In this document: in pieces, positions 4,882 to 48,705 of the stretch
How the letters are laid out: each line of letters starts with the position of its first letter
How positions within the stretch are numbered: position 1 is the first letter of the stretch
Assembly: GCF_949628265.1 (NCBI RefSeq)
Contig: NC_088787.1
Coordinates: 2,842,501-2,906,500, forward strand
From: Cloeon dipterum
Lineage: Eukaryota; Arthropoda; Insecta; Ephemeroptera; Baetidae
Length of the DNA stretch: 64,000 bases
Direction of reading: 5' to 3'
Position numbers and translations under genes: made by a program
Notes under the pieces: model-generated
Seen by the model: the letters and a program-made list of their open reading frames with translations, nothing else
What the model was told of the DNA's origin: nothing
Database searches by the model: none

Positions 4882-7800
4882 ATGTCTCCGTTCTTTGCTG
4901 CCATCTTTTTGCTTGGCCTGTGCCTGGCAAACGCCGTCAACTTCACAACCGTCTACGAGTGGCAGAAATTCGATTTCATCTGGCCATCAAGAGCGGACCC
5001 TTCAAATGTACGGATTAAACAACTTTTTGATCCGGATTATGTTATTCTTCAATACATGGCTGTTTTTGGAGAGAGGCTGTTTCTAAGTCTTATTCCGCAG
5101 CCCGGAATTCCCGCCACTTTGGTGTGGCTGCCAACGAGCGGCACGTCGACTGCGCCTCCTAAGCTTGCTCCTTTTCCATCCTGGCATTTACATGTAAGTC
5201 TTTGAATGGAAAACTGACATATATGGTCTCCACTTAGAAAAAACTGGGAAAACTTGACGAGAAATGATCTCATTTAATGAAATATATTTAAAGAGGGGCT
5301 GCTATTAAGTAGGTCAAATGATCAAATTACGGCTTTTTTATTTTCCGTTGTTTTATAATACGTACGCAATATTCCTCTGGGCGATTCAGTTGAAAAGTGG
5401 AATAATATTTTACTTAAAATCACCAAAGTTTACCATCCTTCCCTTAAATTTCATTTTTAGTGCTGTTTTATGCAATATTACGATTTAAAATGAACGGTTA
5501 TATTTAAAATTTTCGCTTCTAGTGCTGAACGAGTCAAATGCAAAAGATTATTCAGTACCAAAATACACATTTCTATTTACTATTTTCGAAAGTAAAAAAG
5601 TTCATTAATATTCTCATGATATTTTAGAATAATCTGCTCTTGTTGTTAGAAATTATTGTAAAAATTTCTGTTTTTATTTCTTGTGCCAGAAAGAGGACAA
5701 GTGCGACATTATTCAGAGGGCCTTCGGTATTGATACGGACCCTGATGGACGGTTGTGGGTACTTGATCAAGGTAACAACAAATGTCCAGGCAAGATTTGG
5801 ATATTCAACCTGCTCAATAATAACAAAATCGAGCGCGTTCACCAGTTCCCGGATGCAGTCGTCTCTCATTCAAAAGATAAAAGGGCCCTGCGTGATATCG
5901 TGCTCGACAAAACAACGGACGATAATCTTGCGTACATCACGGAATATGAATCTGAGCACATCATAGTTTACAGCAATAAAAACGACAAATCCTGGTCAGT
6001 TAAAACACCAGGCAGAAAATGGTATTCCTTGGCCCTCTCTCCCAACAATAAGGGAAAGTTGTACCTTGGAAGAAGAGGTTCTACAGAACTGTATTCGGTG
6101 TCTGTTTCTGAGCTGAGGAATGAAGGCGGAAGCGCTGCTGTGAAATTCATCGGCGAATGGAATAGAAAACCTTACAGAATGCTAATCGACAGTGCCAATG
6201 TCTTGTATGCCGCCATTTGGAGCCAGAATTACGCCTCCAAATGGAATATTTCGGAGCCCTTTCGTGAGCAGCGGTTTCATGAGGTAATGCTTCCCTGTAT
6301 AAATCGTCATCCATTATGCGGAAAAAATTATAAATTTTACATTTGCCGCACAAATGGTAAAATAAGAAAAATCTGCAAATTTGAAGAAAAATGTTTTTAT
6401 TGGGAATTGGCTCGACTTTAATACGTTTAATAAACAAAATATTTTTTCCTCGAGGTTTAATGATATTGTCTCTTTTACAAATTGCAAAAAATTGGCAAAA
6501 CTTGTTATTTGTAACTTAATTAGACAGAGAAGATGCACTATATATGACGGGCAAATATTTTTGGAAATTTGAAAGAAGAATAATATAACATCGTTTTTTA
6601 AATTTAAAACAATATATTATTATATTCCAAATTGAATATTCGTCCTCTCTCAATATTTGCGACAATTTATGATTCGTTAAGCTAACAATCAAATCACTTC
6701 ACACATTTAGGTCGGAAGACTGGGTGGTGCTAATTGGCTATTTACTTTGGCCTTGGACGCGAACGGCAATTTATGGATGATGGAGAGAAATGTAACTGGG
6801 GGTTCGGGTAAGACTAGGCATAAACTGCTCAAGGCTGCAGTCGACGCCAAATCGTATCAATTCAGCGCGACCACAGGTAAATAAAATCCAAATTGCAATT
6901 TCTATAACTAGCAAAAAACGATAAAATATTATTGGGCTTTACCACAAAATATTTGTTTAGATAATATCTATAAACTTTAAAATATCAAACACTAATTTTC
7001 AGACCTAAATTTAAAAAATAATAATAAACACTTACTAATCATAATAATTTTTTAATTTTCAAATTAACTGGTGATTATATACTGTGTTACCTAAAAAACT
7101 GACAAATTAATGACAAAAATTAATCTTGATCTGGCATAGGATGTGATCCAGCACCTGACAGTCTTAAAGGTTAATTTGGTCAGTTTTTTTGTAAAAAAAT
7201 TTTTTGGCTACAGTCTATGTCAATTTTAACTCACTATATATCGGTCCAAAATGATTTAAATTTAAATTATTAGTTATTTGCATAATTTATAAAAATAAAT
7301 TATTGATATTGAAGTTTTTAGTGCTCTGGATCTTCATATGTCCAATTGAACTGATTACAGTTTCGAAGCCCACTCGAACAACTCTCCATGAGACCACAAA
7401 ACAACAGCAGAAAACCACAGCATCAACCACTTCATCCTCTCGTTATCCATCTACCGGTGAGTCAAAAACAGATTGTTGCTACAATATATAACTTCTAATT
7501 CAGTTTTACCATCTAAATTGATTTAATTTTATTTTTACTTATTTAGATAAATTTTCGAAATAAATTTTTGGTATTAAAGTTTCCAATGATAGATCTTAAT
7601 GTGTCCAACTGAATTGATTGCAGTTTCAACGCCCACCCAAGGACCTCTCCGCCTGAAAACCTTGTCTACGACTTACGTGAATGAAGAGACTTCAGAAGTT
7701 GTGAAAAGCTCGTCGACAAGCAAGACTGGAACTCCCCAACCGGCTCTTGAATCTAACGAAACAAGCGATGGTTGCGCTGGTCTTGCCAAAAGTCAGTCTT

Positions 7801-8282
7801 TGAACAAAATTCTGATTTGGTCGCTCGTGTGTTGCTTCAGTTGCTTGGTCTTGAGCGGCACTGTCATTGCGTGGTTGACCCTGAGGATGAGAAGAATGCA
7901 AACCTCTATGATGAAGATGACAATGGACAATCGTGGGGAAATGTCCGTTTTCCCGGACGATCCAGTGTACGACCACGACGCACCTGAAAATTCCGAACCG
8001 GGCTCACCTGAGAATCCTGATGAACCGCTGTACGCTGAAGTTGACCCTGATTACGCCAGTGCCAGGAACCCTTCTTCTGAGCCCTACGAGGTACCTTTTC
8101 ATCTGATGAGAAACGCCAAAGCGGGAAAACCATCAGAACCGGTGTATGACAATGTTGGTCCGACGGAGCAGGATAATATGTACGATGACGTCGGACCAGG
8201 ACCTTCTTCTGGACCGTCACGGATCAAAAAATCGGGACGCAAGCCAGCAGAGTCGGTGCAGTATCTTAAAGTGTTGCCTTAG
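4882..8282 (+). CDS. YL1: membrane-anchored Yellow/MRJP-like protein with tyrosine-motif tail
   Basis: Exons 4882-5193, 5690-6283, 6711-6876, 7361-7456 and 7624-8282 join to 608 residues with matching phases (0,0,1,1) and GT-AG borders. Residues 1-18 are a signal peptide (MSPFFAAIFLLGLCLANA). About 19-358 is the Yellow/MRJP ectodomain, with VYEW, FPSWHLH, GRLWVLDQG and KIWIFNLL; it is shorter than typical Yellow proteins. A Thr/Ser-rich stalk (about 358-450) leads to one TM helix near 452-474, stopped by RMRR. The roughly 130-residue tail has YAEV, YEVP, YDNV, YDDV and a terminal YLKVLP. The start was chosen because it follows a splice acceptor (4868) and gives the signal peptide shared by the paralogues. 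The fold is known from secreted proteins; the TM and tail are read from sequence. Signalling is inferred. Confidence 0.85.
7361..7456 (+). other. YL1 extra stalk exon, probable cassette exon
   Basis: A 96-nt exon, phase 1 at both ends, so including or skipping it keeps the frame. It encodes a Thr/Ser/Gln-rich segment (starting VSKPTRTTLHETT). Its acceptor region and first codons resemble those of the next exon at 7624 (VSTPT), which suggests a tandem exon duplication. Without it the protein would be 576 residues. Confidence 0.6.
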
Positions 8283-11614: not shown

Positions 11615-14419
11615 ATGTCTCCGTTCTTAGCAGCCATCTTTTTGCTTGGCCTGTGCCTTGCCAACGCCATCAACTTCACAACCGTCTACGAGTGGGATAA
11701 ATTATACGATGCCATCTGGGCACCTGGAGCGGGCCTTTCAAATGGACCGATTACTATACCGAAGAATATTGAATTTCGATACATGGCTGTTTTTGGAGAG
11801 AGGCTGTTTCTAAGCCTTGATTGGGACGACGGAATTCCCGCCACTTTGGTGTGGCTGCCAACGAGCAGCACGTCGACTGCATCTCCAAAGCTTGCTCCTT
11901 TCCCAACCTTGAATTTACATGTAAGTTTACCTGAAAAGAAAACTGATTTGGGCTTTCAATAATTAGAATAAATTGGAAAATTTTTACATGAAATCAACTC
12001 ATATAAAAGAAAGTATTTTAGCAGTGGCGTGTGGCGTCTGAGTTGGTTATGTTCTCAGATTACTGCATTTCTATATGTCTCGGAACGTTCATTCCTCTGG
12101 GTGATTCAGTAAAAAATGGAATGATATTTTACTGATAATTAACAAAATGTACTGTCTTTCCGTTAAATTTTATTTTTTTTGTGATGTTTTACGAAAAATT
12201 ACGATTGGAATGGTTACAAAATTAGCTATTCATCTTACACGTTTCGAGTAAAAAGCAAAAGATCATTCAGTTAAAAATAAATATTTTTGTTTGATATTAT
12301 TAAAAGTATGTTATTTCATTATTTTCCTCGATTTTTTAGAATAATCTGCATTTTGAATTTATTGTAAAATTTTGATTGATTGGATTCTAGTTAAATAATA
12401 ACTGTATTTATTTATGTTGCCAGAAAAAACAAAACTGCGATTCTATTAAGTCGGCCAAAGGAATAGAAACGGACCGTGATGGTCGGTTGTGGATGCTTGA
12501 TAACGGTAGCTGGGGTTGTCCTTGCAAAATTTGGATATTCAACCTGCTCAAGAACGACACAACCGAGCGCGTTCACCAGTTCCCGGACACAGTCGTCTCT
12601 CATTCATATTCCAATAGGTACCTGCGTGATATAGCGCTGGACAAAACATCAGACGATTACCTTGCGTACATCGCGGACTCTGAATCTGAGCACATTTTAG
12701 TTTACAATCTAAAAATGGACAAATCCTGGTCAGTTGAAACACCAGGGACTCATTACATTTCCTTGGCCCTCTCTGCTAACAGGGAAGCGAGACAGTTGTA
12801 CCTTGGAATAAAAGATTCCAATGAACTTTATTCAACGTCTGTGTCTCAGCTGCAGAACGAAGGCGAAAGCGCTGCTGCGAAATTCATCGGCAAATGGAAT
12901 AGAAAACCTTACAGAATGTTAATCGACGGTGCCAATGTCTTGTATGCCGCCTTCAAAAGCCAGACTTACCTCTCCAAATGGAACATTTCGGAGCCATTTC
13001 GTGAGCAGCAGTTTCATGAGGTAATATTTCCCTGCATAAATCGATTAAATGGAAAAATAGAAAATTTCAATTCTGCCCCATAAATGCCTAAAATTTTATA
13101 CATATGCAAATTGAAGAAGAAATTTTTATTAGGATTTGGTTTGACTTTTAAAACATTTTTCTTTCAGATTTAATGATGTTTTTTCGCAAACTGCAACAAT
13201 ATTGGCGAAACCCGTTTTTGGTAACCCAATTTTAGACAGATATACTATCACACGGGCAAATTTTTCGGAAATTTGAGAGTAGAATTTAAACATTTAAAAT
13301 TCAATATTCCCAACAAATTATGCTTTGTCAGGTTAACAATATCAAAAATCACTGCACTTGTTTAGGTCGGAAAACTAGATGCTGAGTATCCATTTACTTT
13401 TGCCTTGGACGCGAACGGCAGTTTATGGATGACGGAGAGAAAGGAAACTGGGGGTTGGACTAAGCCTAGGCATAAACTACTCAAGGCTGCAGTCTGCGCA
13501 GGATCATATTTTTACAGCACGTCCACAGGTAAATAAAATCCTATTCCAATTTATATTGTTTCTGGCATTGGATGTGATCACCATCTGACGAACTTCAAGT
13601 TAATTTAATATGGTCAAAATTCTCTTTCAAAAAAATATTGTATATATAATCTAATAATTTTAAATCAATCATTAACTGATTTGAATTTTAATATTTACTT
13701 AATTTTTGAGTAATTTCTGAAACTAAACTTCTATACCAAAATTGTCAATACTTGATCTTAATATGACCAGTTGAATTGAATACAGTTTCAACGCCCACCC
13801 GAAGACCTCTCGACCTGACAACCTTCCAACCTTGTCTACGACTCACGTGAATGGAGAGACTACAGAAGTCGTGAAAAGCTCGCCAACGCCGACAAGCACG
13901 ACTGAAACTGTTCCTGATCTTGCAGATGATGACCGCGAAAGTCAGTCTTTGAACAAAATTGTGATTTTGTTCCTTGTGTGTTGCTTGGTCTTGTGCGGAA
14001 CTTTCATCGTGTGGCTGACCTTGAGGATGAGAAGAACGCAAACCTCTTCGAGACAGATTCCAACGGACAATGGTGCGGAAATGTCCGTTTTCCCGGACGA
14101 CCAAGTGTACGACGACGTCGCACCAGAAAATTCCGAACCGGACATACCGGAGAATCCTGACGAACCGCTGTACTCTGAAGTTGACCCTGATTACGCCAGT
14201 GCCAGGAACCCTTCTTCTGAGCCCTACGAGGTACCTTTGCATCTGATGAGAAACGCAAATGTGGGAAATCCATCGGAACCGGTGTATGACGATGTTGGTC
14301 CGACGGAGCCGGATAATATTTACGATGACGTCGGACCAGAACCTTCTGGACCGTCACGCAACAAAAAATCGGGACGCAAGCCAACAGAATCGGTGCATTA
14401 TCTTAAGGTGTTGCCCTAG
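11615..14419 (+). CDS. YL2: Yellow/MRJP-like gene with a frameshift before its membrane exon
   Basis: Exons 11615-11920, 12424-13020 and 13366-13528 encode a signal peptide (MSPFLAAIFLLGLCLANA) and the full Yellow-like ectodomain. The last exon, taken at the conserved acceptor (starts 13786), carries an 8-base tandem duplication (CCTTCCAACC region, about 13820-13832) absent from YL1, so the frame ends at TGA 13848-13850: a secreted product of 376 residues. The original frame stays open from 13832 to TAG 14417-14419 and encodes stalk, TM (IVILFLVCCLVLCGTFIVW) and a tail with YDDV three times, YSEV, YEVP and terminal YLKVLP. Weak alternative acceptors at 13856/13857 or 13865/13866 would restore a membrane form of 542 or 539 residues. 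Whether it is secreted, membrane-bound or both cannot be told from DNA. Confidence 0.75.
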
Positions 14420-15564: not shown

Positions 15565-16580
15565 ATGGCCAGTTTGTTCTTATATGCTTTATTTCTCGGC
15601 TTATCCGTGAGCTCTGCTGCAACCGTCTTCGAGTGGACGGATATTGTTTGGGCCAGTGAAGATGACGCGATAAATGCCAATGAGGATACGGAAATCGAAT
15701 TCCTTTACCTAGTGGTACATGGAGAAAGACTTTTCATCAGCCTTTACCATTATCATTCATTATTATGCCTTTGGATACAGGAACTACATTTCCAAATGGG
15801 AAACGAGAAAGCCTTTCAAGCAGGACTGGTTTTACGAGGTGATAATTTCTTACAGAGTTCTAATATAAATATTGATTCATATTTTTAGTTGGAGTTATTT
15901 AATTGTAACCAAGTTCAAAATATATTTTATTAAAATAATCGACTATAAATAGTAAAATTCATGCAACCTAATGTTTTTAGGGTAACGGAAATGGTAAATA
16001 TCACCCGTATACCTTTACTTTGGACGATTCTGGAGATTTATGGCTGACGGACGCAGGCAAAAAATCGCAATATTATCCCGAGTTGAAGATAATAAGGTTA
16101 TCAGTCGGTGCTGCTTCATACTTGCACAACGCTTCATCTGGTAATTAAATATTCGTGCTTAAATTTATTTATTGCGTATTTTAATATTTTTTATCAGTCT
16201 GCAAAGGAGACGAAAAGTGCGATTCAGCTAATGCAGAAAGCCCTTATATTTTTCGGCAGTCTGCTCGCCAGGTTCTCGACTCAGGGTGTGATCACTCCAC
16301 GACAGAAAATCCTACATCCGCGGATAATGATATTTCGACAGAAGAAGAGACACTCGAGATCGTCATCTCGACTACCGAACTTGTTCTTGAAACCGATCTC
16401 GATGTTCGTGCGGATTTGAAAAATTGTCTCGTTTGGAACGTTGCTCTGATTTGCTTGATCGTTGGAACTTTAATTGTGATGGGAGTTGTAATGATTTGGC
16501 AATTTAAAAGGATCCAGATGCTGCGGAAATTAATCGAGAGAAACAAAACAGATAACGAGGAGCTAAAATCGCTTAATTAA
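15565..16580 (+). pseudogene. YL3: internally deleted Yellow/MRJP-like gene
   Basis: A signal-peptide exon (MASLFLYALFLGLSVSSA, then VFEW and HGERLFISL) runs directly, near 15750, into the end of exon 2 (YAFGYRNYISKW to WFYE), so intron 1 and most of exons 1-2 are missing and the frame is shifted. The unspliced frame stops at 15888 (107 residues); splicing the conserved donor (after 15838) to exon 3 gives a stop within two codons. Exon 3 (15981-16140) and the last exon (16198-16580) remain fully open and in phase with each other: acidic stalk, TM (VALICLIVGTLIVMGVVMIW) and a short charged tail without tyrosines. A 5' UTR intron (15503-15563) is plausible. It could be a recent deletion allele, an assembly collapse or a pseudogene with a preserved 3' half. 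Confidence 0.7.
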
Positions 16581-17790: not shown

Positions 17791-19859
17791 ATGGCTTCCG
17801 TCTACCTTTTGGCCCTTTTGCTCTGCGGTGTGGCCTCAATTGATGCCTCCACGTCCACTCCCGTCATAGAATGGGACAAATTCGACTTCCTGTGGCCGTC
17901 AGAGCAGAGAAATCAAGATAATAATCCAGCAAACATCCAACCCAACTTCATGGCAGTGTTTGGTAAGAGGCTGTTCCTCAGTCTCCAACGAGCGAGTGGA
18001 ATTTCCGCTACCCTGGCGTGGCTGCCAGTCTCCAACAACGCATCTTCGAGACTTCAACCCTTTCCTTCCTGGAATTTGCACGTAAGTGAGCTAAATAGGA
18101 AATATTTGTGAACGTATCCCAGCAAGAAATTCGATATCCGTGGATGTATCCGGATGATATACTTCTATACAGCCTGGATATCCCCCTAAGACATCAGGCT
18201 GTTCATCCAGATATCCTTTGGACATACCCGTATATCCTTTGGATATCCTGAAGAATATCATACTGAGATAAATTCAAAAAATATTCTTCGAGTGTAAATT
18301 TGAGAGTAAAATAGTTTATTTTTAAAGGATTACGGGAATTGCAACAGAATTCAAACGGCTAGAGGTTTGGAGGTTGATCCGTTCGGGCGGCTGTGGTTGT
18401 TGGACGACGGCAGCACCACTTGTCCAGCCACCCTCTGGATTTTCAACCTGATCACCAACGACACAATCGAGCTCGTCCACACATTTCCTGACGCAATCGT
18501 CTCTCGTGATTTCGGCAAAAGGCTCCTGCACGATTTGGTGGTGCGAGATTCCGTGGCGTACATCACCGACGTCCATTCCAAGCACCTCGTCGTCTTCAGT
18601 CTGGAGACGAAAGAATCGTGGTCGGTTGAGACGCAGGGAAAGAAGTTTAGAGCCATCGCCCTGGCTGCAGAGAGTAATCTCTTGTACCTCGCGAGACACA
18701 ACTCGAGGGAATTGTATTCGGTGGCTCAGTTCAGGGCCAAGGAACGAAACACAACCCTAAATCTGGTTGGCTCCTGGAAAGCTGAGCCCTACCGGATGGT
18801 AATTGACAGTGAAAACGTCTTGTTTGCCGCCTTTTATGACCGGAACTACATCTCAACCTGGAATGTCACAGAACAATTCAAAGAACGTCGACTCAGTGAG
18901 GAGGTAATAAATATATTTAATCAATAAATGTTAAAGAATTATTTCTGATATTCTCACTGTTCTCAGTTCGGAATATTTAGTGGTCAAAGGAGTCTGTTTT
19001 GTTTTGCCTTGGACTCGTTTGGAACTTTTTGGACGTTGATAGACCACGGAGAAAATATGAAGCCAAGGTTTCAATTGCAGATGGTTGCAGAAAGGAATAT
19101 ATCAGGTACCTCAACCCAGCTGAAGGATATCTAAAGGATATTCAGATGATATTCAAAGGATATTCGGATGATATTCAAAGGATGTCTGGGTGATATCCTT
19201 TCGATATTAGGATGATATTCAAAGGATATCTGGGTGATATCCTTTTGAACAGCCTATGTCATAGGAGGATATCCTCGGATATCCGATTTCTAGCCGGAAA
19301 GGAATGATAAAACATTTTAGATCCGAAATATGTTATGATAAATGAATGATATCCCAATGATATCACGATGTACCTTTTTTCAGGACCAGAACGATACGTA
19401 AGTTCGGATAGGACCCCAAACAAAAGCCCCAGTAAGGATCAAGAATTCCAGAAACCAGTCGTTGAGGTTGCGGCCTGCCTTGCCGAAGATTATCATCAGA
19501 GCCGATTTTTAAACCTGATCTTGATTTGCTCGAACGTCTTCACCTTTTTTGCGATGGGAGCCGTCATTGTGTGGCTCCTGCTGAAAAGGAAAAACTCAAA
19601 GCGCCCGGAGACGACGAACACGGCCGTGGAAAGGCAGCAAGTTTTCGTGCTGTACGACGAAATCGTCAAACCTGTGCCTTGGAACCCAGCGGATTACGGA
19701 TATGTGACCGCTAATAATGTTCTTCCTCCGAGGCTGTTCGAGCGACCCAGAGAGTACGAGGAAATTGGCCTAGTCAATCCGGAGCCTGTGTACAATGAAA
19801 TCAGGCCACACAATGTGCTCATGGATTCGCCAACTTACCTGAAACTCTTCCCCGAATAA
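17791..19859 (+). CDS. YL4: membrane-anchored Yellow/MRJP-like protein with tyrosine-motif tail
   Basis: Exons 17791-18081, 18328-18903, 18967-19105 and 19384-19859 join to 493 residues with phases 0,0,1. The signal peptide (about residues 1-19, MASVYLLALLLCGVASIDA) is followed by VIEWDKFDFLWPS, FPSWNLH, GRLWLLDDG and LWIFNLI of the Yellow/MRJP fold, a short stalk, and a TM helix at about 377-401 (ILICSNVFTFFAMGAVIVW) stopped by KRK. The tail of about 90 residues carries YDEI, YGYV, YEEI, YNEI and terminal YLKLFPE. It is the most diverged of the intact copies around it and its introns are short except where GGATATCC repeats sit. Type I topology is predicted; ligand and partners are unknown. 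Confidence 0.85.
18118..18275 (+). repeat. GGATATCC-rich element in YL4 intron 1
   Basis: Starts CCCAGCAAGAAATTCGATATCC and continues with GGATATCC/GATGATAT motifs and a CAGGCTGTTCATCC segment. Related to the elements at 19112 (inverted orientation) and 43472. Confidence 0.6.
19112..19300 (-). repeat. GGATATCC-rich element in YL4 intron 3
   Basis: Tandem GGATGATATTCAAAGGATAT units ending in GGATATCCGATTTCTAGCC, which is the inverse of the left end of the intron 1 copy. The opposite orientation argues for separate insertions, not a single tandem array. Confidence 0.6.
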
Positions 19860-30478: not shown

Positions 30479-32670
30479 ATGTCTCCGCTCGTTGCCGCCA
30501 TCTTTTTGCATGGCTTGTGCCTGGCCAACGCCGTCAACTTCACAACCGTCTACCAGTGGGATGAATTCGATTTCATCTGGCCATCAGGAACTGATAGTTC
30601 AATTGAAGAGATGAAAGAGGACTACAAGCGAGGCAATGCTTATCTTAACTACATGGCTGTTTTTGGAGACAGGCTGTTTCTAAGTCTTGATACGAATTAC
30701 GGAGTTCCCGCCACTTTGGTGTGGCTGCCAACGAGCGGCTCTTCGACTGCACCTCCAAAACTTGCTCCTTTCCCATCCTGGCATTTACATGTAAGTACAT
30801 CTGAATGGAAAACTGTTTTAAGCTTTTAATAATTATAACAAATTGGGAAAATTTTTCATTAAATCAACTTATATAAAAGAAAGTATTTTAGCAGTGACTT
30901 CTAAGTAGGTAAAATATTATCAATTTACTATTTTTTAAGTTTACGTTGTTTTACAATACGTATCATTTCTAGTCTCGGAACGTTCATTTCTCTGGGTGAG
31001 TGAGTAAAAATTTGAATAATATTTTTCTTATAATGAACAACATGTACCAACTTTCCCTTAAGTTAAAATTTTTAGTGCTGTTTTATGCAAAATTACGATT
31101 GGAATGGTTACAAAATGAGCTATTTATCTTACACTTTTCGAGTAAAAATCAAAACATCATTCAGTTAGAAATACACACTTTTGTTTAATATTATTAAAAG
31201 TTTATTATTTCATTAGTTTCCTTGATATTTTAGAATAATCTGCTTTTAGAATTTATTGTAAAATTTCGATTGATCGGATTCTAGTTAAACAGCAACTGTT
31301 TTTATTTCTGTTGCCAGAAAAAAGAAAACTGCGATTCTATTCAGAGGGCCTACGGTATTGATACGGACACTGATGGTCGGTTGTGGGTGATTGATCAAGG
31401 AAGTAACAATTGTCCAGGCAAGATTTGGATATTCAACCTTCTCAGTGACGACACAACCGAGCGCGTGCACCAGTTCCCGGATACAGTCGTCTCTCATTCA
31501 AAAGATAATAGAGCTCTGCGTGATATCGTGCTCGACAAAACACCAGACGATTACGTTGCGTACATCACGGACGTTCTGTCTGAGCACATCATCGTTTACA
31601 ACCGAAAAACTGACAAATCCTGGTCGGTTAAAACACCAGAGATAAAATGGTTTTCCTTGGCCCTCTCTCCTATCAGGGAAGCGAGACAGTTGTACCTTGC
31701 AAGATTTGGTTCCAACGAAATGTACTCATTGTCTGTTTCTGAGCTGAGGAAAGAAGGCGGAAGCGCTGCTGTCAAATTAATCGGCAAATGGACAGAATAT
31801 AACCCTTACAGAATGGTAATCGACAGTGGCAATGTCTTGTATGCCACATTTTGGACCCAGAATTACCTCTCCAAATGGAATATTTCGGAGCCCTTTCGTG
31901 AGCAGCGGTTTCATGAGGTAATGCTTCCGTTTTAAAATTGATTATGTAGAGAAATTAGAAATTTTAATTCTGCCCCACTAATGTTAAAAATTAAAAAAAA
32001 AATCTGCAAATTGAAGGAATTGGTTTGACTTGAATACAAACATATTTTTCCTCAAGATTTAAAGGTCGCTCTTTCCGCAAATTGCAACAATTGGTGAAAC
32101 CAGTTTTTCGTAACTTTTTGAAATAAAAAAATATTTTTCAACGTTTCAACGGCGAATGGCTGAACCGATTTTGGTTTTCAGCACGTCAAAAAAGCATATT
32201 AATTGAAGAATTCAAAATAGCTAGATTGAGTCTGAAATCGCAGCGGAAATGCCTTAAAACCGCTTAAAACAACATTTTTAAGAAAGTGTGTGGTTGCGCC
32301 GTCTGTTGGCGGCTTCAATAACTAAGGGTTTATGCAACTGGTCAAATTGACAGATGTACTGTCTCTGTCACACGGGATTTTTTCTGAAAATTGAAATATG
32401 AATTTAACACCGTTCTTAATTTGCAACAATAACAATATTCCAAAATAATTGAATATTCGTCCTCTCTCAATATTCCCGACATTTTATGCTTTGTCAAGCT
32501 AACAATCGCAATTCACTGCACTCTTTTAGGTCGGAACACTGGGTGGTGCTTATAGGCCATTTACTTTGGCCTTGGACACGAACGGCATTTTATGGATGAC
32601 GGAGAGAATTGAATCTGAGGGTTGGTCTAAGCCTAGGCATAAACTAGTCAAGGCAGCAGTCGGCGCATGA
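30479..32670 (+). CDS. YL6: Yellow/MRJP-like protein, secreted by a stop in exon 3
   Basis: Exons 30479-30790, 31318-31917 and 32530-32670 encode 350 residues: signal peptide (MSPLVAAIFLHGLCLANA), VYQWDEFDFIWPS, FPSWHLH, GRLWVIDQG, KIWIFNLL and the exon 3 motif LALDTNGILWMTER. At the position where YL2 has a Gly codon (GGA), YL6 has TGA (32668-32670), about 11 codons before the exon's donor, so no stalk, TM or tail follows. The ectodomain frame is otherwise intact, which suggests a functional soluble protein. YL7 has the same stop. Exon 2 is closest to YL7 and YL1. A stalk and C-terminal tail exon lies downstream (33364-33836) but is out of reach of this frame. Confidence 0.82.
32113..32340. 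mobile_element. Retroelement-like insertion in YL6 intron 2
   Basis: About 230 bp absent from the same intron of YL7. It contains CGAATGGCTGAACCGATTTT, a string resembling the 3' ends of some insect non-LTR or SINE elements. The family assignment is tentative. Confidence 0.4.
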
Positions 32671-33363
32671 TCATATTTACACAGCACGTCCACAGGTAAA
32701 TAAAATCAAATTTCTATTGCGAGGATAATACGATAAAAGTTTGGCTTTTACCACAAAATATTTGAATAAATGTATCGATAAAATTTCAAATGTGAAATAC
32801 CGATTCTCAATTCTAACATTTTGTTCATTTCTTATCTGAAAAATGAACAATAAACGAGTTTGAGTTTTGAATAAAATTATATTTTGTCATTGAGACGCGA
32901 GATAAAACGAAACCCTCAATAATTAAGGCAATTTTTAAATTAATAACTTTTTTGGGATCAATATTGCAATATTGAACCCGTCCTTAAAATTCAAGAGATT
33001 TGCCAGAAATTCTGAGATCGAACCTTACTTAGTTTTGGAATCTTTCTTGCTTTTAGTTGGATTTTGTTACGTAAAAGCTTATCAATTTATCTAATTATTT
33101 TAAATTTTCAAAAAAGTAACCAGCGATTACATACTGTTGTTACCTGAAAAATTAAAGTTGTATATAAATTAATTTTTTCTAGCATATGATATGATCAACA
33201 CTTTTGACAGTCGGTCAATTTATTCTTTCATAAAAAGATTTTGCTACAATCTAAAAATTTTAATCCAGTCATTCCGTCTAAAATGATTCAAATATCAATT
33301 TTTTCTTATTTACATAATTTTTCACATTAAAGTTTTCAATGTGTCCAATTGAATTGATTACAG

Positions 33364-33836
33364 TTCCATAGCCAACTCGAACAACTCTGCATGAAACCAC
33401 AGAAACACAAAAGAAAACCACAGCATCACCCACATCATCCTCTCGTTATCGATCTACTCCTCCTCCTTCTTTAACCTCTAGAAAAACGCAGACTACTTAT
33501 TGGAGTCCTAAATCTGAGGTCACAGAGTCCATTTCTTCGGAAGACCAAATAGTGACCACAGAGTTTAACCTCCCTCCCATTCCCGATCGTTCCACCACAA
33601 CCATGACTACGCCTCCAGCACAAGGAACAACATCAGTGACCACGTCTCCTCGTCGGATTCCTGTTCCTGAGACCACGATGAGTATTCCCTCAGAAGCAAC
33701 GAATCGGCAGATTTTTACCACGGCTTCTAGCCAGCCCTCGTCTGCCCTTCCCTTGAATGAACGTCAGAACGAAAACTCGGGACGTAAGCCAACAGAGTCG
33801 GTGCAGTATCTTGAGGTGTTGCCTAAGAGTGGATAA
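33364..33836 (+). pseudogene. YL6 stalk/tail exon downstream of the stop, TM lost
   Basis: The conserved acceptor (GATTACAG, to 33363) is followed by V-P-stop (TAG 33369-33371). From 33372 to TAA 33834-33836 there are 154 uninterrupted codons: Thr/Ser/Pro-rich mucin-like sequence starting PTRTTLHETT (homologous to the extra stalk exon of YL1), running into SGRKPTESVQYLEVLP, the conserved C-terminus. No hydrophobic segment is left. The TAG itself can serve as an AG acceptor, giving a phase 0 exon that would join in frame to exon 2 if exon 3 were skipped. Dead relic or alternative secreted isoform: undecided. Confidence 0.6.
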
Positions 33837-37375: not shown

Positions 37376-39280
37376 ATGTCTCCGTTCGTTGCTGCCATCT
37401 TTTTGCTTGGCATTTGCCTTGCCAATGCTGTCAACTTCACAACCGTCTACGAGTGGGAAACATTCGATTTCATCTGGCCATCAGGAACTGATAGTTCAAT
37501 TGAAGAGATGAAAGAGGACTACAAGCGAGGCAATGCTTATCTTAACTACATGGCTGTTTTTGGAGACAGGCTGTTTCTAAGTCTTGATACGAATTACGGA
37601 GTTCCCGCCACTTTGGTGTGGCTGCCAACGAGCGGCTCTTCGACTGCACCTCCAAAACTTGCTCCTTTCCCATCCTGGCATTTACATGTAAGTACATCTG
37701 AATGGAAAACTGTTTTAAGCTTTTAATAATTATAACAAATTGGGAAAATTTTTCATTAAATCAACTTATATAAAAGAAAGTATTTTAGCAGTGACTTCTA
37801 AGTAGGTAAAATATTTTCAAATTACCATTTTTTTTTAAATTTTACGTTGTTTTACAATACGTATCATTTCTATTCTCGGAACGTTCATTCCTCTGGGTGA
37901 GTCACAGTAAAAAATGGAATAATATTTTACTTATAATCAACAAAATTAAGATTGGAATCTGGAATGGTTACAAAATGAGCCATTCATCTTACTTTTCGAG
38001 TAAAAAGCAAAAGATCATTTAGTTAAAAATAAACATTTTTGTTTAGTATTATTAAAAGTATATTATTTCATTAGTTTCCTTGATATTTTAGAATAATCTG
38101 CTATTAGAATTTATTGTAAAATTTCGATTGATCGGATTCTAGTTAAACAGCAACTGTTTTTATTTCTGTTGACAGAAAAAAGAAAACTGCAATTCTATTC
38201 AGAGGGCCTACGGTATTGACACGGACACTGATGGACGGTTGTGGGTCGTTGATCAAGGAAGTATTAATTGTCCAGGCAAGATTTGGATATTCAATCTGCT
38301 TAACAACGACCAAACCGAGCGCGAGCACCAGTTCCCGGACGCAGTCGTCTCTCATTCAAAAGATAAAAGGGCCCTGCGTGATATGGTGCTCGACAAAACA
38401 ACAGACGATTATCTTGCGTACATCACGGACGTTTGGTCTGAGCACATAATCGTGTACAGCCGAAAAATGGACAAATCCTGGTCAGTTAAAACACCAGAGA
38501 TAAAATGGTTTTCCTTGGCCCTCTCTCATCCTATCAGGGAAGCGAGACAGTTGTACCTTGCAAGATTTGGTTCCAATAAACTGTATTCGGTGTTTGTGTC
38601 TGAGCTGAAGAATGAAGGCGGAAGCGCTGCTGTCAAATTCATCGGCAAATGGACAGAATATAACCCTTACAGAATGGTAATCGACAGTGGCAATGTCTTG
38701 TATGCCACCTTTTGGACCCAGAATTACCTCTCCAAATGGAATATTTCGGAGCCCTTTAATGAGCAGTGGTTTTATGAGGTAATGCTTCCCTTTTAAAATC
38801 GATTATGTGGAAAAATTAGAAATATTAATTCCGCCCCACTAATGTTAAAAACTAAAAAAATCTGCAAATTGAATTAATTGGTTTGACTTTAATACAAACA
38901 TATTTTTCCTCAAGATTTAAAGGTTGCTCTTTCCGCAAATTGCAACAATTGGTGAAACCTGTTTTTCGTAACCCAATTATAGACAGACGTACTGTCTCTG
39001 TCGTATGGGATTTTTTCTGAAAATTGAAATATGAATTGAACACCGTTCTTAATTTGCAACAATAACAATATTTCAAATTGAATATTCCCGACAAATTATG
39101 CTTTGTCAAGCTAACAATCCATTCACTGCACCCTTTTAGGTTGGAAGACGGCGTGGTGCTCATAGGCCATTTACTTTTGCCTTTGACACGAACGGCATTT
39201 TATGGATGACGCAGAGAGATGAATCTGAGGGTTGGTCTAAGGCTTGGCATAAACTAGTCAAGGCTGCAGTCGGCGCATGA
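37376..39280 (+). CDS. YL7: Yellow/MRJP-like protein, secreted by a stop in exon 3
   Basis: Exons 37376-37687, 38176-38778 and 39140-39280 encode 351 residues. Signal peptide (MSPFVAAIFLLGICLANA), VYEWETFDFIWPS, FPSWHLH, GRLWVVDQG and KIWIFNLL are present. From the variable loop through the end of exon 1 the protein is the same as YL6; exon 2 differs at many residues and carries one extra codon (SLALSHP). The TGA at 39278-39280 is at the same site as in YL6, so the stop predates their duplication, and the ectodomain frame has stayed open in both since. Predicted soluble extracellular protein. Confidence 0.82.
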
Positions 39281-39983
39281 TCGTATTTATTCGGCACGTC
39301 CACAGGTAAATAAAATCCAATTTTTATTGCGAGGATAATACGACAAAATTTAGGCATTTACCACAAAATATTTGTATTAATGTATCTATAAAATTTCAAA
39401 TATGAAATACCGATTCTCAATTCTAACATTTTGTTCATTTCTAGTCCGAAAAAACGAACAATAAACGAGTTTGAGCTAAATTTTTTATCTGAATAAAATT
39501 ATATTTTGTCATTGAGATGCGAGATAAAACGAAACCTCAATAATTAAGCCAATTTTTAAATTAATAACTTTTTTGGGATCAATATTGCAATATTGAACCC
39601 GTCCTTAAAATTCAAGAGATTTGCCAGAAATTCTGAGATCGAATCTTAATTAATTTTGGAATCTTTCTTGCTTTTAGTTGGATTTTGTTCGGTAAAAACT
39701 CATCTATCTATCTAATTATTTTGGATTTTCAAAAAAGTAACCAGCGATTACATACTGTTGTTACCTGAAAAATTAAAGTTGTATATAAATTAATTTTTTC
39801 TAGCATATGAAATGATCAACACTTGACAGTCGGTCAGTTTATTCTTTCATAAAAAGATTTTTGCAACAATCTAAAAATTTTAATTCAGTCATTCCGTCTA
39901 AAATGATTTAAATATCAATTTTTTATTATTTACATAATTTTTCACATTAAAGTTTTCAATGTGCCCAATTGAATTGATTACAG

Positions 39984-40453
39984 TTCCATAGCCAACTCGA
40001 ACAACTCTGCATGAAACCACAGAAATACAAAAGAAAACCACAGCATCAACCACTACTTCATCCACTCGTTATCGATCTACTCCTCCTCCTCCCTCTTTAA
40101 CCTCTAGAAAAACGCAGACTACTCCTAAATCTGAGGTCACAGAGTCCATTTCTTCGGAAGACCAAATAGTGACCACAGAGTTTAACCTTTCTCCCATTCC
40201 CGATCGTTCCACCACAACCATGACTACGCCTCCAGCACAAGGAACAACATCAGTGACCACGTCTCCTCGTCGGATTCCTGTTCCTGAGACCACGATGAGT
40301 CTTCCCACACAAGCACCGAATGGGCAGATTTTCACCACGGCTTCTAGCCAGCCTTCGTCTGCCCTTCCCTTGAATGAACGTCAGAACGAAAACTCGGGAC
40401 GTAAGCCAACAGAGTCGGTGCAATATCTTGAGGTGTTGCCTAACAGTGGCTAA
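39984..40453 (+). pseudogene. YL7 stalk/tail exon downstream of the stop, TM lost
   Basis: As in YL6, the frame begins V-P-stop (TAG 39989-39991) and is then open for 153 codons from 39992 to TAA 40451-40453, ending SGRKPTESVQYLEVLP plus four residues. Three length differences from YL6 (a Thr codon gained, a Pro codon gained and three codons lost) are all multiples of three. Confidence 0.6.
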
Positions 40454-42471: not shown

Positions 42472-44555
42472 ATGCATCCTTTCTTCCTATTCCCCTTTCT
42501 GCTGGGCCTGTCCTTGACCAACGCAGTGAACTTCACCACCGTTTTCGAGTCGAATGTATTGGTTTACAACCGGACAAGGGCCATTCAAGACCTAATTCAG
42601 CCACAGTACATGGCAGTTTTTGGCGATCGGATCTTCATCAGCCTTCATAAAGCCAATTCTAACTTGGACACTTCCGTGACGAACTTGGTTTGGATGCCGA
42701 CCACCGGCGCCCGGAAACTTACCCCTTTTCCATCCCGTGAATTCTATGTAAGCTTTATCCAAGAGAAGAAGAACTATACTATTAAAACATTTCCTATAGG
42801 ATGCGGATACAGGGGCCTGCGGAAGTGCAATTCATTCAGCGAAGGGCTTGGAGGTGGATTCAGAAGGTCGGCTTTGGGTGCTTGACAATACAGCTTCGCG
42901 CTGTTTCGCATCAAAACTGTGGATTTTTAATTTAGCCAAAAACGATACAGTCGAAATAGTCCACGAATTTTCTCGTCAGTATAACCCTTACATTCATTTG
43001 GTTTTGGATCTGGTGCTGGACGAAACGCAGGGAGATTGGCTCGCTTATATCATTGGCGAGCGTGATACTCGAATGATCGCATTCAGCCTGAGAAGAAACA
43101 TCTCGTGGCAGGTGCAGGTTGAGAGTGCTGAACGTCGGAATTTCAACGGATTCTCAGCCATCGCCCTCTCTGCCAAGGGAGAAACGAGGCAGCTGTACCT
43201 GAAACCTAGATACGCCAGAGAACTGCTTTCAGTTCCTGTGGACAGACTGAGGGCGGGAAATCGAGTCGTTCTTGCTAATGAGACACAAACGCTTGGCAAA
43301 TTGGTCTATAAAATGTTGATAAACGAGATCAACGTCATGTATTTTGGCGTTTCAAATGAGGGTTACATCGCAAGCTGGAAAACTACGGAGCCCTTTGAAG
43401 AGAAGCGTTTCTACGAGGTGAGGACTATAGAAAACATAATTTTACAGGGAGATTAATTATAATTCTGCTGTTCCCGGCAAGAAATTTGATATCCGCCCTA
43501 TGACACCGGGCTGTGCAAATGTATATCCTCCGGATATCCATGGATATCCACATCTTTTGGATATCCTGAAGGATATTTTTTGGATATCCTGAAGGCTAAG
43601 GATATCCTGATTGACATTTTTGGATATCCTTTAGGATATCTATTGGATATCCGGATGAAATACTTTTGGATATCCTGAAGGGCATCTTTTAGTTATCTTT
43701 TGGATGTCCTGAGGATCTCTTTTGGATATCCGGATGATATACTTTTTTACATCCTTTGGATGTATTTTTGATATCTAATTTCTTGCTTGCTGCATTGTTC
43801 TAACAAGAGTTAAAATAAATATTTCTAACAGTTTTTCCGATCGTTTATGGGTTAATTATTCTTTCGAGGCTGGAGAATCAAAGTCTACTTGGCCGTTCAC
43901 CTTTGCCTTGGACTCGACCGGAACCTTTTGGATAATGGTGTTTAACAAAACTGGGAAACCGAGGTACAGGCTCCTGAAAGCCGCAGTCGGGGCCAGATCG
44001 TATCTATTTAACACCTCAACAGGTAGTTTCCTACAAATTTCCTTGAGAAAGAAAGTAAAAATGATTATTGTTTTGATTTCAGTGCCTGCTGTGTTTACAC
44101 AAAACGGTGACATTGCCGGAATAACCAGAGAAAGTGACTCAGCAGGAGTTGATGGATTAAACATCGGTCTCATCTGCTTGACCGTCGTGGTTTTCGTCTC
44201 AATGGGAACGGTCATCGTTTGGTTGCTCTTGCGGTTAAAAAGACGAAATTCGCTTCCACAATCGAGAAACGACGAGCCTTGTGGAGAAACGCGAAATATC
44301 CCCGTTGAGCCAGTTGATAAATTCGAACCCGACGAGCCGCAATATGATTACGTCACTGTGCCCAGAGAGATCGAGCTGTATGAACAACCTCTAACCGCAG
44401 CAAACATCAGAGACCGCGGCAGAACGGCTCACAGTCGTGTTGTGGACGACGAGTATGACGACATCGGCCCCATACAGCCACCGGAAGTTATTTATGAAAA
44501 TGTTACACCTGGACCTTCCAAATCGTCGCTTTACTTGAAAGTTGTACCCACTTAA
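42472..44555 (+). CDS. YL8: membrane-anchored Yellow/MRJP-like protein with tyrosine-motif tail
   Basis: Exons 42472-42747, 42800-43417, 43869-44022 and 44083-44555 join to 506 residues with phases 0,0,1. Signal peptide (MHPFFLFPFLLGLSLTNA), VNFTTVFES, YMAVFGDRIFISL, a diverged FPSREFY, GRLWVLDNT and LWIFNLAKND are seen; this copy is well diverged from YL1-YL7. TM about 377-399 (IGLICLTVVVFVSMGTVIVW), followed by RLKRR. The tail of about 105 residues has YDYV, YDDI, YENV and terminal YLKVVPT. Introns 1 and 3 are very short (52 and 60 nt). Intron 3 is a multiple of three without stop codons, so a retained form would also be translatable. Intron 2 carries a GGATATCC element. Confidence 0.85.
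43472..43795 (+). mobile_element. GGATATCC-rich element with terminal inverted repeats in YL8 intron 2
   Basis: Left end GGCAAGAAATTTGATATC and right end GATATCTAATTTCTTGC are inverted repeats. The interior is a tandem series of GGATATCCTGAAGG-type units. Best-preserved member of the family also found in YL4 introns 1 and 3. Confidence 0.65.
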
Positions 44556-45736: not shown

Positions 45737-45754
45737 GTACATTTCTGTTAAAAA

Positions 45755-46126: not shown

Positions 46127-48705
46127 ATGGCGGCTCCGCTTGTCCTTCTGACATTATTTCTGCTCGACCTGTGCTGGTGCTGCTCCTCCTCTGTCCACGT
46201 CACTTCCGTCTTCCAGTGGGACGTGATGGATTTCAACTGGCCCTCTGAGGAGAAGAGAACCAAGGCCGTGCTCGACAAAAGCTTCAAACCTGAGAGTATT
46301 AGTCCGCGATACGCGGCCGTTTTCGGCAACAGACTCTTCCTCAGCCTCTCCAAAGAAAATGGCGGCAATCCCGTGTCTCTGGCATGGCTGCCAACCAGAA
46401 GCACGTCAGCTTCAGAGCCGCCCAAACTCAATCCTTTTCCATACTGGCGAATGCACGTGAGTTTTAAATTTAATTTTCTCGTAAAATTCGTGCCACGCCC
46501 CCCTCTGTTAGCCAATCAGATTGTTTGTTGTAAAACAGGAAGGACCGAACCGCAGTGACACGATAATGCGGGCGACGGGTCTGGAAGTCGACCGACTCGG
46601 CAGGTTGTTGTGGGTGTTGGACGTGAGTTATCAAAACTCGAAATCAAAGCTCTGGATCTTCAACCTGAAGGAAAACGATGCCATCCATCTCGTGCATCAG
46701 TTTGGCGACATTTTCGGCCTGAACGACCTGGTGTTGGACGAGACGCCGGACGACTGGCTGGCCTACATCACGTATTACCTCTCCGACAACCTCATTGCTT
46801 TCAGCTTGAAGACAAATCAATCGTGGCTCGTGGAAACGCAGGGCCAGAGATTCGTCGCAATCGCCATTTCGCCTAAAAATGAGCAGATTTATCTCAGCAA
46901 CCACGGCTCCAAGGAATTGTATTCGATCGGCTCGGTAGGACTCAGGAACGGAAGCAGAGCCGCAAATCCGGAGTTGATTGGAAACTGGACAGCGCAACCT
47001 TGTAGATTGGTGGTAGACAAACATGGCGGCCTGCTCGCATCCTTTTTCTACGCAAACTTCACTGCAATTTGGAATACAACACAGCCATTTCAGGAGCAAA
47101 GTTTATATGAGGTATAAAAAGGTCTTAAAATTATAGTTTTACTTTTAACCGCCGGGTGTTGAAGCTGCGCAGTAAACTTGTGCGCAACTTCCGCATGCGC
47201 AATATGTTCAGATCGCTTCTTAATTTCACAGGGAAGCTGAAACTTTTCACTGCGCATGCGTGAACCAAATTAAAACCTTCTGCGCAGTCGTATTTCCCAC
47301 CGGGGTTGCGATCTGTGTTGGTTCTTGCCGGTCAAAATGGAGTCGAAGTAATGGCGGACAATGGTAGACAGTCCAGCGGCCAATTAAAAGCGTTAAAAAA
47401 GAGGCGTGCCGACCTAATAATTTCATTCCCGCGTATTTTGTTAAATTTCCATTAGCCCAATGTGCCATCTAACGGTCGATTCGCCAATTACCGGGCTAAT
47501 CAGCTGTTAGTAAAGATATAACAACAACTTTGCCACCGTACTAAATGCGCGTCACGTGAATCCAGCCCCTGGAGCATTTAACACGTCTATAAATTAATTT
47601 AATTTAATTTAAACAAATTTTTAACTCTCTAAAAAATAATTTAAAATTGCGGAATAAATTTTTAAATTTATTTGGGGCTCTTGGTCAGTTTATTAACTTG
47701 TAATTTCCTCTATTTAGGTCAAGGCTGCGAATACTTACTGGCCGATTACGCTTGCCTTGGACACATCCGGAACTCTTTGGATGACGGTGCAGAGTAAAAT
47801 TATGGATAAGCCGCGGTACAGGCTTCTGAAGGCCGCAGTCGGAGCCAAATTTAATGTTCCAAAAGGTAATTTTATTCAATAGTTTTTTATCTTCTTGCTA
47901 TTAAATTGTCATAATTTCTCTCACCCCGGAAGCAATTAATTTCCTTTGCTCAAAAAAGAGGGCGTAACTGGTACAATTTGAAAAATTGGATTTTGGGGGC
48001 ATTTTTTCTAAAAAAATTGCTATTTATTAGTAAATAACATTAATTTATATTATTTATTAGAGTTATGCAACCTGTTAGACTGACGGTTAAAGCCGGTTGC
48101 ATACTCTTTTCTCCGACATTCCTGACTAAAATCCGCTAATTATAATTTCAGAGCCGAAAATAAAGAAAAATCGGAAAAATCCAACTGCTTGTGTGCATCT
48201 TGAAGAGCGCAACTGTTCCTTCACCAATGGAAGTGACCAATTTCGAGAAAATCACAAAAACAGGAGCTCTATCAACGTTTTACCCATAATTCTGATCTGC
48301 TTGGCCGTCATCATCATCGTTTCAATAGCAATTCTCATTGCGTATTTCCTCGCGCGGGCAAAAAAGCAACGAAACTCGGCCGACCTGCCGAGATTCCACG
48401 AGCTGCAACAAATGATTGAAATTCCTTTAAATGCTGCCCGTCCTCCGTCTCCGGGGCTCTACGAAACGCCGAAATCTCGTTCTTCTGACGACAATAAGAT
48501 CAGAGAATTCAAACCCTGCCCCACGGTGGCGGAGATCATGGACCGATTGGGGCCGCCGCCTCCCATCCCGACGAGTGAGTACGACGACGTCGGCCCTCTG
48601 GAGCCGCAACCGGAAAATCTGTACGTCCTAGCAGGACCTTCCAGGTCGTCGAACTACCTGAGAATCTTGCCCAGTGTAGATCGACCCCAGGATTTGAGCT
48701 ATTGA
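46127..48705 (+). CDS. YL9: membrane-anchored Yellow/MRJP-like protein with tyrosine-motif tail
   Basis: Exons 46127-46456, 46539-47111, 47718-47865 and 48152-48705 join to 534 residues with phases 0,0,1. The signal peptide (about 1-21, MAAPLVLLTLFLLDLCWC) precedes VFQWDVMDFNWPS, FPYWRMH, a variant GRLLWVLDVS with LWIFNLKEND, and LALDTSGTLWMTV. Several NxT/S sites are present. TM about 392-416 (VLPIILICLAVIIIVSIAIL), followed by ARAKK. The tail (about 115 residues) has YETP, a PPPPIP run, YDDV, YVLA and YLRILP, then 12 extra residues. It is the last copy of the array and among the most diverged. The start codon lies 6 bases after the acceptor. Confidence 0.85.
47150..47525 (+). repeat. Repeat family R2 copy in YL9 intron 2
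   Basis: AGCTGCGCAGTAAACTTGTG, CCGCATGCGCAATATG, CACTGCGCATGCGTGAACC and CATCTAACGGTCGATTCGCC, in the same order as at 22190. Confidence 0.65.
48065..48102. repeat. ATGCAACC hairpin in YL9 intron 3
   Basis: Perfect arms ATGCAACC/GGTTGCAT with flanking AGAGT and ACTCT extending the stem. Confidence 0.5.

Follow-up and report, generated by a model that had tools for sequence, protein, structure and literature searches.

Candidate membrane receptors within a very large, probably lineage-specific family of Yellow/MRJP-like proteins in Cloeon dipterum

Introduction

A typical Yellow protein has a signal peptide and one MRJP domain, suggesting an extracellular location (PMC6678240). A figure legend in the same paper, on DCT and DCE proteins, mentions transmembrane motifs and leaves the proteins that own them unspecified. 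Our searches of the Yellow/MRJP literature, which covered titles and the starts of abstracts in open-licence papers, returned none that named a Yellow family anchored in the membrane or expanded on a massive scale. In the accessible parts of two further papers, the word "yellow" is absent (the Cloeon dipterum genome, PMC7250882) or occurs once, as a colour (PMC11597413). In these sources we found no earlier description of a receptor-like Yellow family of this kind.

Among the relatives of Yellow proteins, those of the LJM11 type use the propeller for ligand binding. FREPs, VLRs, and NITRs are diversified innate recognition families, and insects are generally regarded as dependent on germline receptor sets of modest size. 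We know of no case in which the Yellow fold serves as a variable immune-type receptor. Here, we describe a tandem cluster of Yellow/MRJP-like loci in a window of 64,000 nucleotides of Cloeon dipterum DNA and the family to which these loci belong.

Results

Gene models YL1 to YL9 were made by predicting splicing from the DNA sequence. All nine lie on the + strand, and positions are those of the window. YL1 (4882-8282) has exons at 4882-5193, 5690-6283, 6711-6876, 7361-7456 (Ser/Thr), and 7624-8282, the last of which encodes the stalk, a transmembrane (TM) helix, and a tail with the motifs YAEV, YDNV, YDDV, and YLKV. YL4 (17791-19859; exons 17791-18081, 18328-18903, 18967-19105, and 19384-19859) has the tail motifs YDEI, YGYV, YEEI-x8-YNEI, and YLKL. 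There is almost no stalk in YL5 (22875-25049; exons 22875-23186, 23388-23987, 24188-24329, and 24514-25049), the tail of which carries YDDV, YDYV, YEEV, and YDDV. The exons of YL8 (42472-44555) are at 42472-42747, 42800-43417, 43869-44022, and 44083-44555, and a single open reading frame (ORF) at 43779-44555 spans the end of the propeller, the TM, and the tail. YL9 (46127-48705; exons 46127-46456, 46512-47111, 47718-47865, and 48152-48705) has a tail with YDDV and YLRI. At these five loci, exons 1, 2, and 3 lead to the TM/tail exon through GT/AG junctions in phases 0, 0, and 1. The architecture that the initial annotation gave to these five paralogues therefore stands with regard to in-phase joining, with corrections to the stalk and the motif counts that are given below.

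YL2 (11615-14419) has the same exon set as YL1 (11615-11920, 12424-13020, 13366-13528, and approximately 13786-14419). It had been described as having the same parts behind a frameshift, and we found this frameshift in the stalk exon, upstream of the TM. YL3 (15565-16580) is a remnant made up of part of exon 1, the final 28 residues of exon 2, an exon-3-like piece, and a TM exon. YL6 (30479-33836; exons 30479-30790, 31318-31917, and 32530-32695) and its duplicate YL7 (37376-40453; exons 37376-37687, 38176-38778, and 39140-39305) have in common an in-frame TAA right after the propeller, and the TM is absent in both. A Ser/Thr ORF is found downstream in YL6 (33372-33836, without a TM) and also in YL7 (39992-40453). 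The product of YL6, if functional, is probably soluble.

A Pfam search upheld the description of the ectodomain as Yellow/MRJP-like: the MRJP domain (PF03022) was matched above the curated cut-off in all eight exon-2 ORFs tested, with E values from 4e-12 to 9e-23. Sequence relatives are MRJP1, dopachrome conversion enzyme, and LJM11. An AlphaFold model of exon 2 alone (200 residues, four blades of the six-bladed propeller) had a pLDDT of 92.7. The top PDB matches to this model were 9w1k, 5yyl, 7asd, and 3q6k, and the best fold matches were Aedes dopachrome conversion enzyme, MRJP1, and LJM11. By hydropathy, the N-terminus is hydrophobic in a manner typical of signal peptides, and the start of the protein is in this sense signal-peptide-like. 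Judged from these sequences, the Yellow propeller is the conserved scaffold of the family.

As initially annotated, a single TM helix and a tyrosine-rich tail are present in YL1, YL4, YL5, YL8, and YL9; the 19-residue Kyte-Doolittle mean of the helix is 2.25-3.55 and basic residues come after it. At YL8 and at two loci outside the window, L028 and L027, a single ORF without interruption takes in the end of the propeller as well as the TM. This answers in part whether the TM/tail exons join the ectodomain exons and, together with the agreement of phases, makes it unlikely that the TM exons are separate genes. The Ser/Thr-rich stalk, which had been ascribed to all five paralogues, can be made out clearly in YL1 and YL2 but only weakly in YL4, and there is hardly any of it in YL5, YL8, and YL9. 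Likewise, where three to seven YxxV/I/L-type motifs had been reported for each tail, a strict count gives two to five (4 in YL1, 5 in YL2, 5 in YL4, 4 in YL5, 5 in YL8, and 2 in YL9).

We compared the frequency of YxxV/I/L with that in shuffled tails. In a set of 15 tails, consisting of the six from the window and nine from other loci selected for a long tail, 67 of 103 tyrosines are in such a motif versus 15.0 ± 3.5 after shuffling (maximum 26; 2,000 shuffles). In 10 less related tails the corresponding values are 45 of 69 versus 10.4 ± 2.8 (maximum 21). Shuffling thus rules out that the YxxPhi motifs arose by chance. Among these 45 motifs, D or E is at +1 in 31 and at +2 in 27, and V is at +3 in 35. 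Intact long forms have acidic YxxV/I motifs, often paired as Y[DE][DE]V, most have a C-terminal YLK(V/I)-type motif, and the tyrosine motifs are retained across divergent tails. The Y-to-Y spacing of motif pairs is 12-13 in YL1, YL2, YL4, YL5, and YL8. Tested against YxxL/I-x6-12-YxxL/I, this spacing fits and the YEEI-x8-YNEI of YL4 is a full fit; most of the others end in V. Because the final residue is mostly V and not the classical L/I, the tails are at best candidates for the label of classical ITAM. No Pfam domain scored above the cut-off in the four tails that were scanned.

Searches with three family exons, taking the best 150 matches for each query, matched at least 250 distinct places in the genome, at least 224 of which are on C2. 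These genome-wide searches rule out that the copies in the window are an ordinary small cluster. Searches for other families gave one odorant-binding-protein (OBP) match and 5 matches to the insect odorant-receptor family 7tm_6, in keeping with an insect; the OBP result falls far short of the OBP expansion that PMC7250882 reports, although a search by exon may overlook genes that are split. For COX1 there was a single match, which was below the cut-off and contained stops. There was no stop in 149, 148, and 149 of the best 150 scored matches to the three queries, and an open long tail is kept in about 40 copies. We also sampled 24 stretches, picked by eye and fetched for exon 2. In the 32 judgeable models from this sample a TM is present in 20 and none was found in 12, and only four have a tail in which YxxV/I/L occurs at least four times. 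The family is mixed and not all of its members are candidate receptors, with many copies being short-tailed or without a detectable TM.

All 47 sampled copies form one clade (SH-aLRT 99), the sister of which is L004, a single Yellow gene with a GPI-like end and an MRJP domain match of E 2.6e-38. One sister gene versus at least 250 places, within a single genome, fits a lineage-specific origin. Long tails occur in early branches (YL8, YL4, YL1/2/5, and YL9), and the tree points to a long tail that arose early and has been shortened or lost on several occasions. Labels for full and short tails are scattered over the tree with 9 changes, and 137 and 116 of 500 shuffles were as low. The initial proposal, a lineage-specific family of receptors with the Yellow propeller as its base, draws support from the anatomy, the tree, and the pattern of selection; the family is far larger than the window shows, and the many copies in which no TM was found count against it.

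Variable residues are concentrated on one face of the propeller, with the D-A and B-C loops on this face being hypervariable. Entropy is 2.01 bits in the top loops (54 positions), 1.33 in the bottom loops (49), and 1.15 in the strands (95), with a permutation p of 0.0004 for the comparison. Hypervariable positions sit in loops and several are often W, Y, G, S, or R. With a counting method applied to 12 pairs, dN/dS is 1.56 (1.21-1.95) at hypervariable columns and about 0.4 elsewhere; it is 1.11 (0.91-1.31) in the top loops, 0.43 in the bottom loops, and 0.41 in the strands. A value above 1 at hypervariable columns is absent in two of the 12 pairs (L016/L017, 0.83; YL6/YL7, 0.43). If each class of sites is instead scaled by its own dS, dN/dS is 1.19 at the hypervariable columns and, over three variants, 0.95-1.18 in the top loops, and because of these values relaxed constraint keeps a small share of the probability. 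Values of 0.3-0.55 show constraint on the strands and bottom loops.

Synonymous divergence is far lower in the tail than in the head for L030/L040, L014/L016, and L014/L017 (p 1.6e-5 to 2.4e-9), a signal that was not seen in L030/L025 (p 0.58). Since some tail exons are much closer than their heads at silent sites, we conclude that exchange of these exons between loci took place.

Discussion

We favor the reading, to which we assign a probability of about 0.6, that these loci encode type I membrane glycoproteins. They would belong to a giant and probably lineage-specific family, kin of a single Yellow gene whose end is GPI-like, and would form a diversified receptor repertoire signalling via tyrosine motifs. 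A role in immune or cell-surface recognition can reasonably be inferred from the hypervariable face and the exchanged tails. In this role, the variable face would bind a range of different ligands, most likely surface molecules, whether foreign or self. Upon clustering, a Src-family kinase could then phosphorylate the tail, after which pYEEI-like tail sites may recruit SH2 proteins, and short-tailed and soluble copies might act as decoys or modulators. More tentatively, and at somewhat worse than even odds, the family may be an innate insect analogue of variable immune receptor families. By this account a Yellow protein became membrane-anchored and then a signalling receptor, with hundreds of loci, a CDR-like face of W/Y/G/S/R-rich loops under diversifying selection, tails that moved between heads through the exchange of exons, and decoys that are soluble or lack a tail.

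It is unlikely, but deserves some weight, that these are scavenger or uptake receptors in which YxxV/I/L motifs are AP-2 sorting signals and the proteins take up their ligands instead of signalling. There are several such motifs in each tail, YxxPhi agrees with the sorting consensus, and endocytic receptors may carry repeated motifs. However, the mostly acidic +1 and +2 positions and the predominance of V at +3 are, by the known preferences of AP-2 and Src SH2 domains, nearer to the pYEEI type, and uptake and signalling are compatible rather than mutually exclusive. We consider improbable a chemosensory family in which small molecules are captured on the propeller face and the role of the tail is to signal or to localise the receptor. 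LJM11, a relative in both sequence and fold, binds amines, and chemoreception typically involves large tandem families, whereas the hypervariable sites here are in loops, several of them often W, Y, G, S, or R, and insect chemoreceptors do not usually combine a single-pass TM with a tyrosine tail. The chances seem just as slim for self or gamete recognition (allorecognition, sperm-egg, or eggshell) driven by sexual or self/non-self conflict; fast change on one face is also typical of reproductive proteins and some cnidarian allorecognition proteins have ITAM-like tails, but defence explains hundreds of loci and tail-less forms at least equally well. Least probable are Yellow enzymes of the ordinary kind that have been tethered to the surface, together with decaying duplicates and with relaxed constraint as the source of the variation: dopachrome conversion enzymes are Yellow proteins, YL2, YL3, and YL6/7 are broken, many tails are truncated, and own-dS dN/dS of the top loops is about 1, yet there is constraint on the strands and bottom loops (0.3-0.55) but not on one face, 148-149 of the best 150 scored exon-2 matches are stop-free, and tyrosine motifs are maintained among divergent tails.

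If the receptor repertoire that we favor is real, then few single-fold receptor-like families in an insect would be larger than this one, with its approximately 250 or more Yellow proteins in membrane and soluble form, and a role in recognition would be added to those in pigment and royal jelly for which the Yellow/MRJP fold is known. This reading yields testable predictions about binding loops, signalling tyrosines, and tail-less copies as decoys.

The family resembles FREPs, VLRs, and NITRs in its tandem expansion, hypervariable head, exchanged tails, and truncated and soluble-like forms, but has an unrelated fold. With ITAM/ITIM-type and Draper-like immune receptors it shares a single-pass type I layout and spaced YxxPhi pairs; it differs in having a Yellow propeller as the head rather than Ig, lectin, or EGF domains and in the last motif position being mostly V. 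The sand-fly salivary Yellow-related proteins of the LJM11 type have the same fold and a distantly similar sequence, but to our knowledge are secreted in saliva with no TM, tail, or large expansion. Secretion without a TM, a trait of the Yellow/MRJP family (PF03022), could apply to YL6, YL7, and the 12 of 32 models without a TM, in contrast to YL1, YL4, YL5, YL8, YL9, and the 20 of 32 models with one. As a whole, the family shares with the Yellow/MRJP proteins the propeller, a signal-peptide-like start, and domain and fold matches to MRJP1, Aedes dopachrome conversion enzyme, and LJM11, and departs from them in its C-terminal TM helix, tyrosine-rich tail, at least 250 places in the genome, and hypervariable face.

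Organization of the array

Nine Yellow-like copies (YL1–YL9) are arranged head to tail on the plus strand between 4.9 and 48.7 kb of the window. Three ectodomain exons, with end phases of 0, 0 and 1, are repeated across copies and are followed by a phase-1 exon for the transmembrane helix (TM) and tail; YL1 has an additional Ser/Thr exon (phase 1-1). Using the YL1 exons as tblastn queries, the other window copies were recovered exon by exon. For eight exon-2 open reading frames (ORFs), the match to Pfam MRJP exceeds the curated cut-off (E 4e-12 to 9e-23), which bears out the domain assignment of the initial annotation. As that annotation also held, YL1, YL4, YL5, YL8 and YL9 are whole copies with all junctions in phase, and YL2 has a frameshift, located in its stalk exon. 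YL3 is a remnant.

YL6 and YL7, both lacking the TM, share an in-frame TAA at the propeller end. Because their exons 2 differ by a dN of 0.061 and a dS of 0.190, this soluble form may still be constrained. Ser/Thr-rich ORFs of 153–154 codons lie 3' of the two stops (33372–33836 and 39992–40453), finish in the family's YLEVLP-type tail without a TM and differ by a dN of 0.031 and a dS of 0.070.

Short repeats of the GGATATCC type (11/22 bases) occur in introns of YL4 (19123–19245) and YL8 (43552–43746). An interspersed repeat of about 200–270 bases, in both orientations and roughly 70–92% alike, is found at 22266–22462, 47134–47330, 55088–55276, 57734–58195 and 62627–63098, with two tandem pairs. 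A Rhodopsin-type GPCR gene divided among several exons adjoins the array (51190–54906, minus strand); three of its ORFs match 7tm_1, at E 2e-16, 6e-10 and 3e-9.

The TM as a predicted part of the protein

Splicing of the TM exon is predicted, and three lines of evidence speak for the TM belonging to the same protein as the propeller. Junctions keep phase throughout the five whole copies; the propeller end and TM share an open frame in YL8 and in two loci elsewhere in the genome, L028 and L027; and the layout recurs across loci outside the window. In YL8, propeller end, TM and tail form one ORF with or without removal of a 60-base intron, and in L028 (6814) and L027 (554) genomic DNA reads stop-free from propeller end into TM.

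To sample the layout, 24 stretches retrieved for their exon 2 were picked by eye for spread; these gave 35 exon-2 models after copies cut by a stretch end were left out; three were not judgeable (L039 first copy, L034 second copy and L043). In this sample a TM ORF follows exon 3 in 20 of the 32 judgeable models, at a hydropathy cut of 1.9 (the first copy of L035 reaches only 1.76 but resembles its neighbour). A TM was not found in the other 12; L030 minus, L040 plus and L033, where a downstream hydrophobic ORF is unlike the family TM exon, were scored as lacking it. Four models (L020, L025, L030 and L040 minus) have at least four YxxV/I/L motifs in the tail.

Family size and origin

Genome searches with exon 2 of YL9, L021 and YL1 gave 362, 370 and 367 candidates. 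The best 150 of each were scored, all with E < 1e-40, and 149, 148 and 149 of these were stop-free. Merged, these searches mark at least 250 distinct places in the 190.1 Mb genome, and a Pfam search added at least 23 candidate places. At least 224 of the 250 are on C2, the large contig holding the window (2842501–2906500), with at least 215 below 5.4 Mb and at least nine above 35 Mb; C1, C5, C3 and C4 have at least 14, nine, two and one. Many off-array members are near chromosome ends (C1 36.8–42.2 of 43.2 Mb, C2 35.6–36.6 of 37.5 Mb, C3 35.4 of 37.1 Mb, C4 32.8 of 36.4 Mb), and others are away from them (C3 7.7 Mb, C5 8.6 and 26.5 Mb). About 40 long tails are stop-free (25 of L014 type, 12 of YL1 type including that of YL2, and those of YL4, YL8 and YL9).

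In a 50-row tree, 47 family copies form one group (SH-aLRT 99) whose sister is a Yellow gene, L004 (C3:14510456–14514085, at 14.51 Mb); the root position is less sure because the two outgroup Yellow genes have long branches. L004 has exon cuts identical to those of the family and a stronger MRJP score (E 2.6e-38). The C-terminus of L004 appears GPI-anchor-like: small polar residues precede a short hydrophobic segment, the succession with which GPI-anchored proteins finish. The early branches YL8, YL4, YL1/2/5 and YL9 are all long-tailed, which makes it probable that the long tail is ancient and that several later losses or shortenings took place. Tail-length labels require nine changes on this tree, and L028 and L032 retain remains of a longer tail beyond stops or frameshifts. 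An ordinary Yellow cluster (C1 18.972–18.990 Mb) contains an apparent 10,367-base tandem duplication, with equal scores at that offset.

A variable face on a constrained propeller

The exon-2 structure model (mean pLDDT 92.7, pTM 0.90) has its best PDB matches in Aedes dopachrome conversion enzyme, MRJP1 and LJM11, which sequence profiles also match together with designed Pizza propellers. The D-A and B-C loops of a propeller lie together on one side, termed top here, and the A-B and C-D loops on the opposite side, termed bottom. In the alignment of 47 exon-2 sequences, positions above 2.5 bits number 22/54 in top loops, 4/49 in bottom loops and 6/95 in strands of the model (permutation p 0.0004 for the difference of mean entropies). 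When positions flanking the loops are counted as well, those of the top are 1, 2, 4, 10, 27, 30, 56, 65, 66, 86–89, 105, 109, 110, 112, 129–131, 133, 162 and 179–181, and those of the bottom 42, 46, 120, 142 and 194. The first loop layout was hand-drawn after the entropies were seen, and the structure model agreed later. At residues 66, 130 and 180, W is commonest, and the alternatives include Y, S, G and R.

Selection was estimated over 12 fairly close pairs (exon-2 dS 0.04–0.48), hypervariable columns being defined without the pair concerned. These columns have a dN/dS of 1.56 against all-site dS (bootstrap over pairs 1.21–1.95) and 1.19 against their own; the remainder has 0.44. At hypervariable columns the ratio exceeds 1 in 10 of 12 pairs, the exceptions being L016/L017 (0.83) and YL6/YL7 (0.43). 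By model loops, dN/dS is 1.11 (0.91–1.31) for the top, 0.43 (0.34–0.56) for the bottom and 0.41 (0.37–0.44) for strands; extending the loops by one strand-end residue gives 1.01 (0.82–1.17) for the top. With own-class dS, the hand-drawn top gives 1.04; the value is 1.18 when gappy columns are dropped and 0.95 when only the seven closest pairs are used. Counting over pairs thus shows a scaffold under constraint and one face that is free or driven; the columns that vary most are probably driven.

Tail motifs and exon exchange

The 15 long tails examined contain 103 tyrosines, of which 67 belong to YxxV/I/L motifs, against 15.0 ± 3.5 expected. The 45 motifs of ten representative tails have D/E at +1 in 31, D/E at +2 in 27 and V at +3 in 35. 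In most long tails, two near-end motifs are 12–13 residues apart and the last motif is YLK(V/I/L)-like. No Pfam domain was found in the four tails scanned.

We compared synonymous divergence of tail and exon 2 in seven pairs (p per pair, uncorrected). Differences in L030/L040 were 10.0 of 121.7 sites in the tail versus 37.3 of 122.8 in exon 2 (p 1.6e-5), and in L014/L016 24.5 of 112.5 versus 69.2 of 117.7 (p 5.8e-9). L014/L017 (p 2.4e-9), L016/L017 (0.003), L030/L016 (0.008) and YL1/YL2 (0.036) also differed; L030/L025 did not (p 0.58). Some tails therefore have histories separate from their heads, a pattern that gene conversion or exon shuffling inside the arrays would be expected to leave.

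Possible function and known systems

The architecture, scale and kinship of the family, its one-sided variability, motif enrichment and exchange are shown at the level of predicted genes. We propose that the variable face would bind ligands, the tail would recruit a kinase and SH2 proteins, short or soluble forms would act as decoys, and defence would have driven the diversification. That the family serves endocytic uptake is improbable, and chemosensing and self or gamete recognition are each slightly less probable again. The optimum of Src-family SH2 domains is pYEEI, which the tail motifs resemble, and YENV/YDNV in the tails resemble the pYxN type of Grb2/Drk. In the parts of the Yellow/MRJP literature consulted, a membrane-anchored or massively expanded Yellow family was not found. 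The Yellow fold, the single TM and YxxPhi tails are individually known; their predicted combination, and its scale, are new to us.
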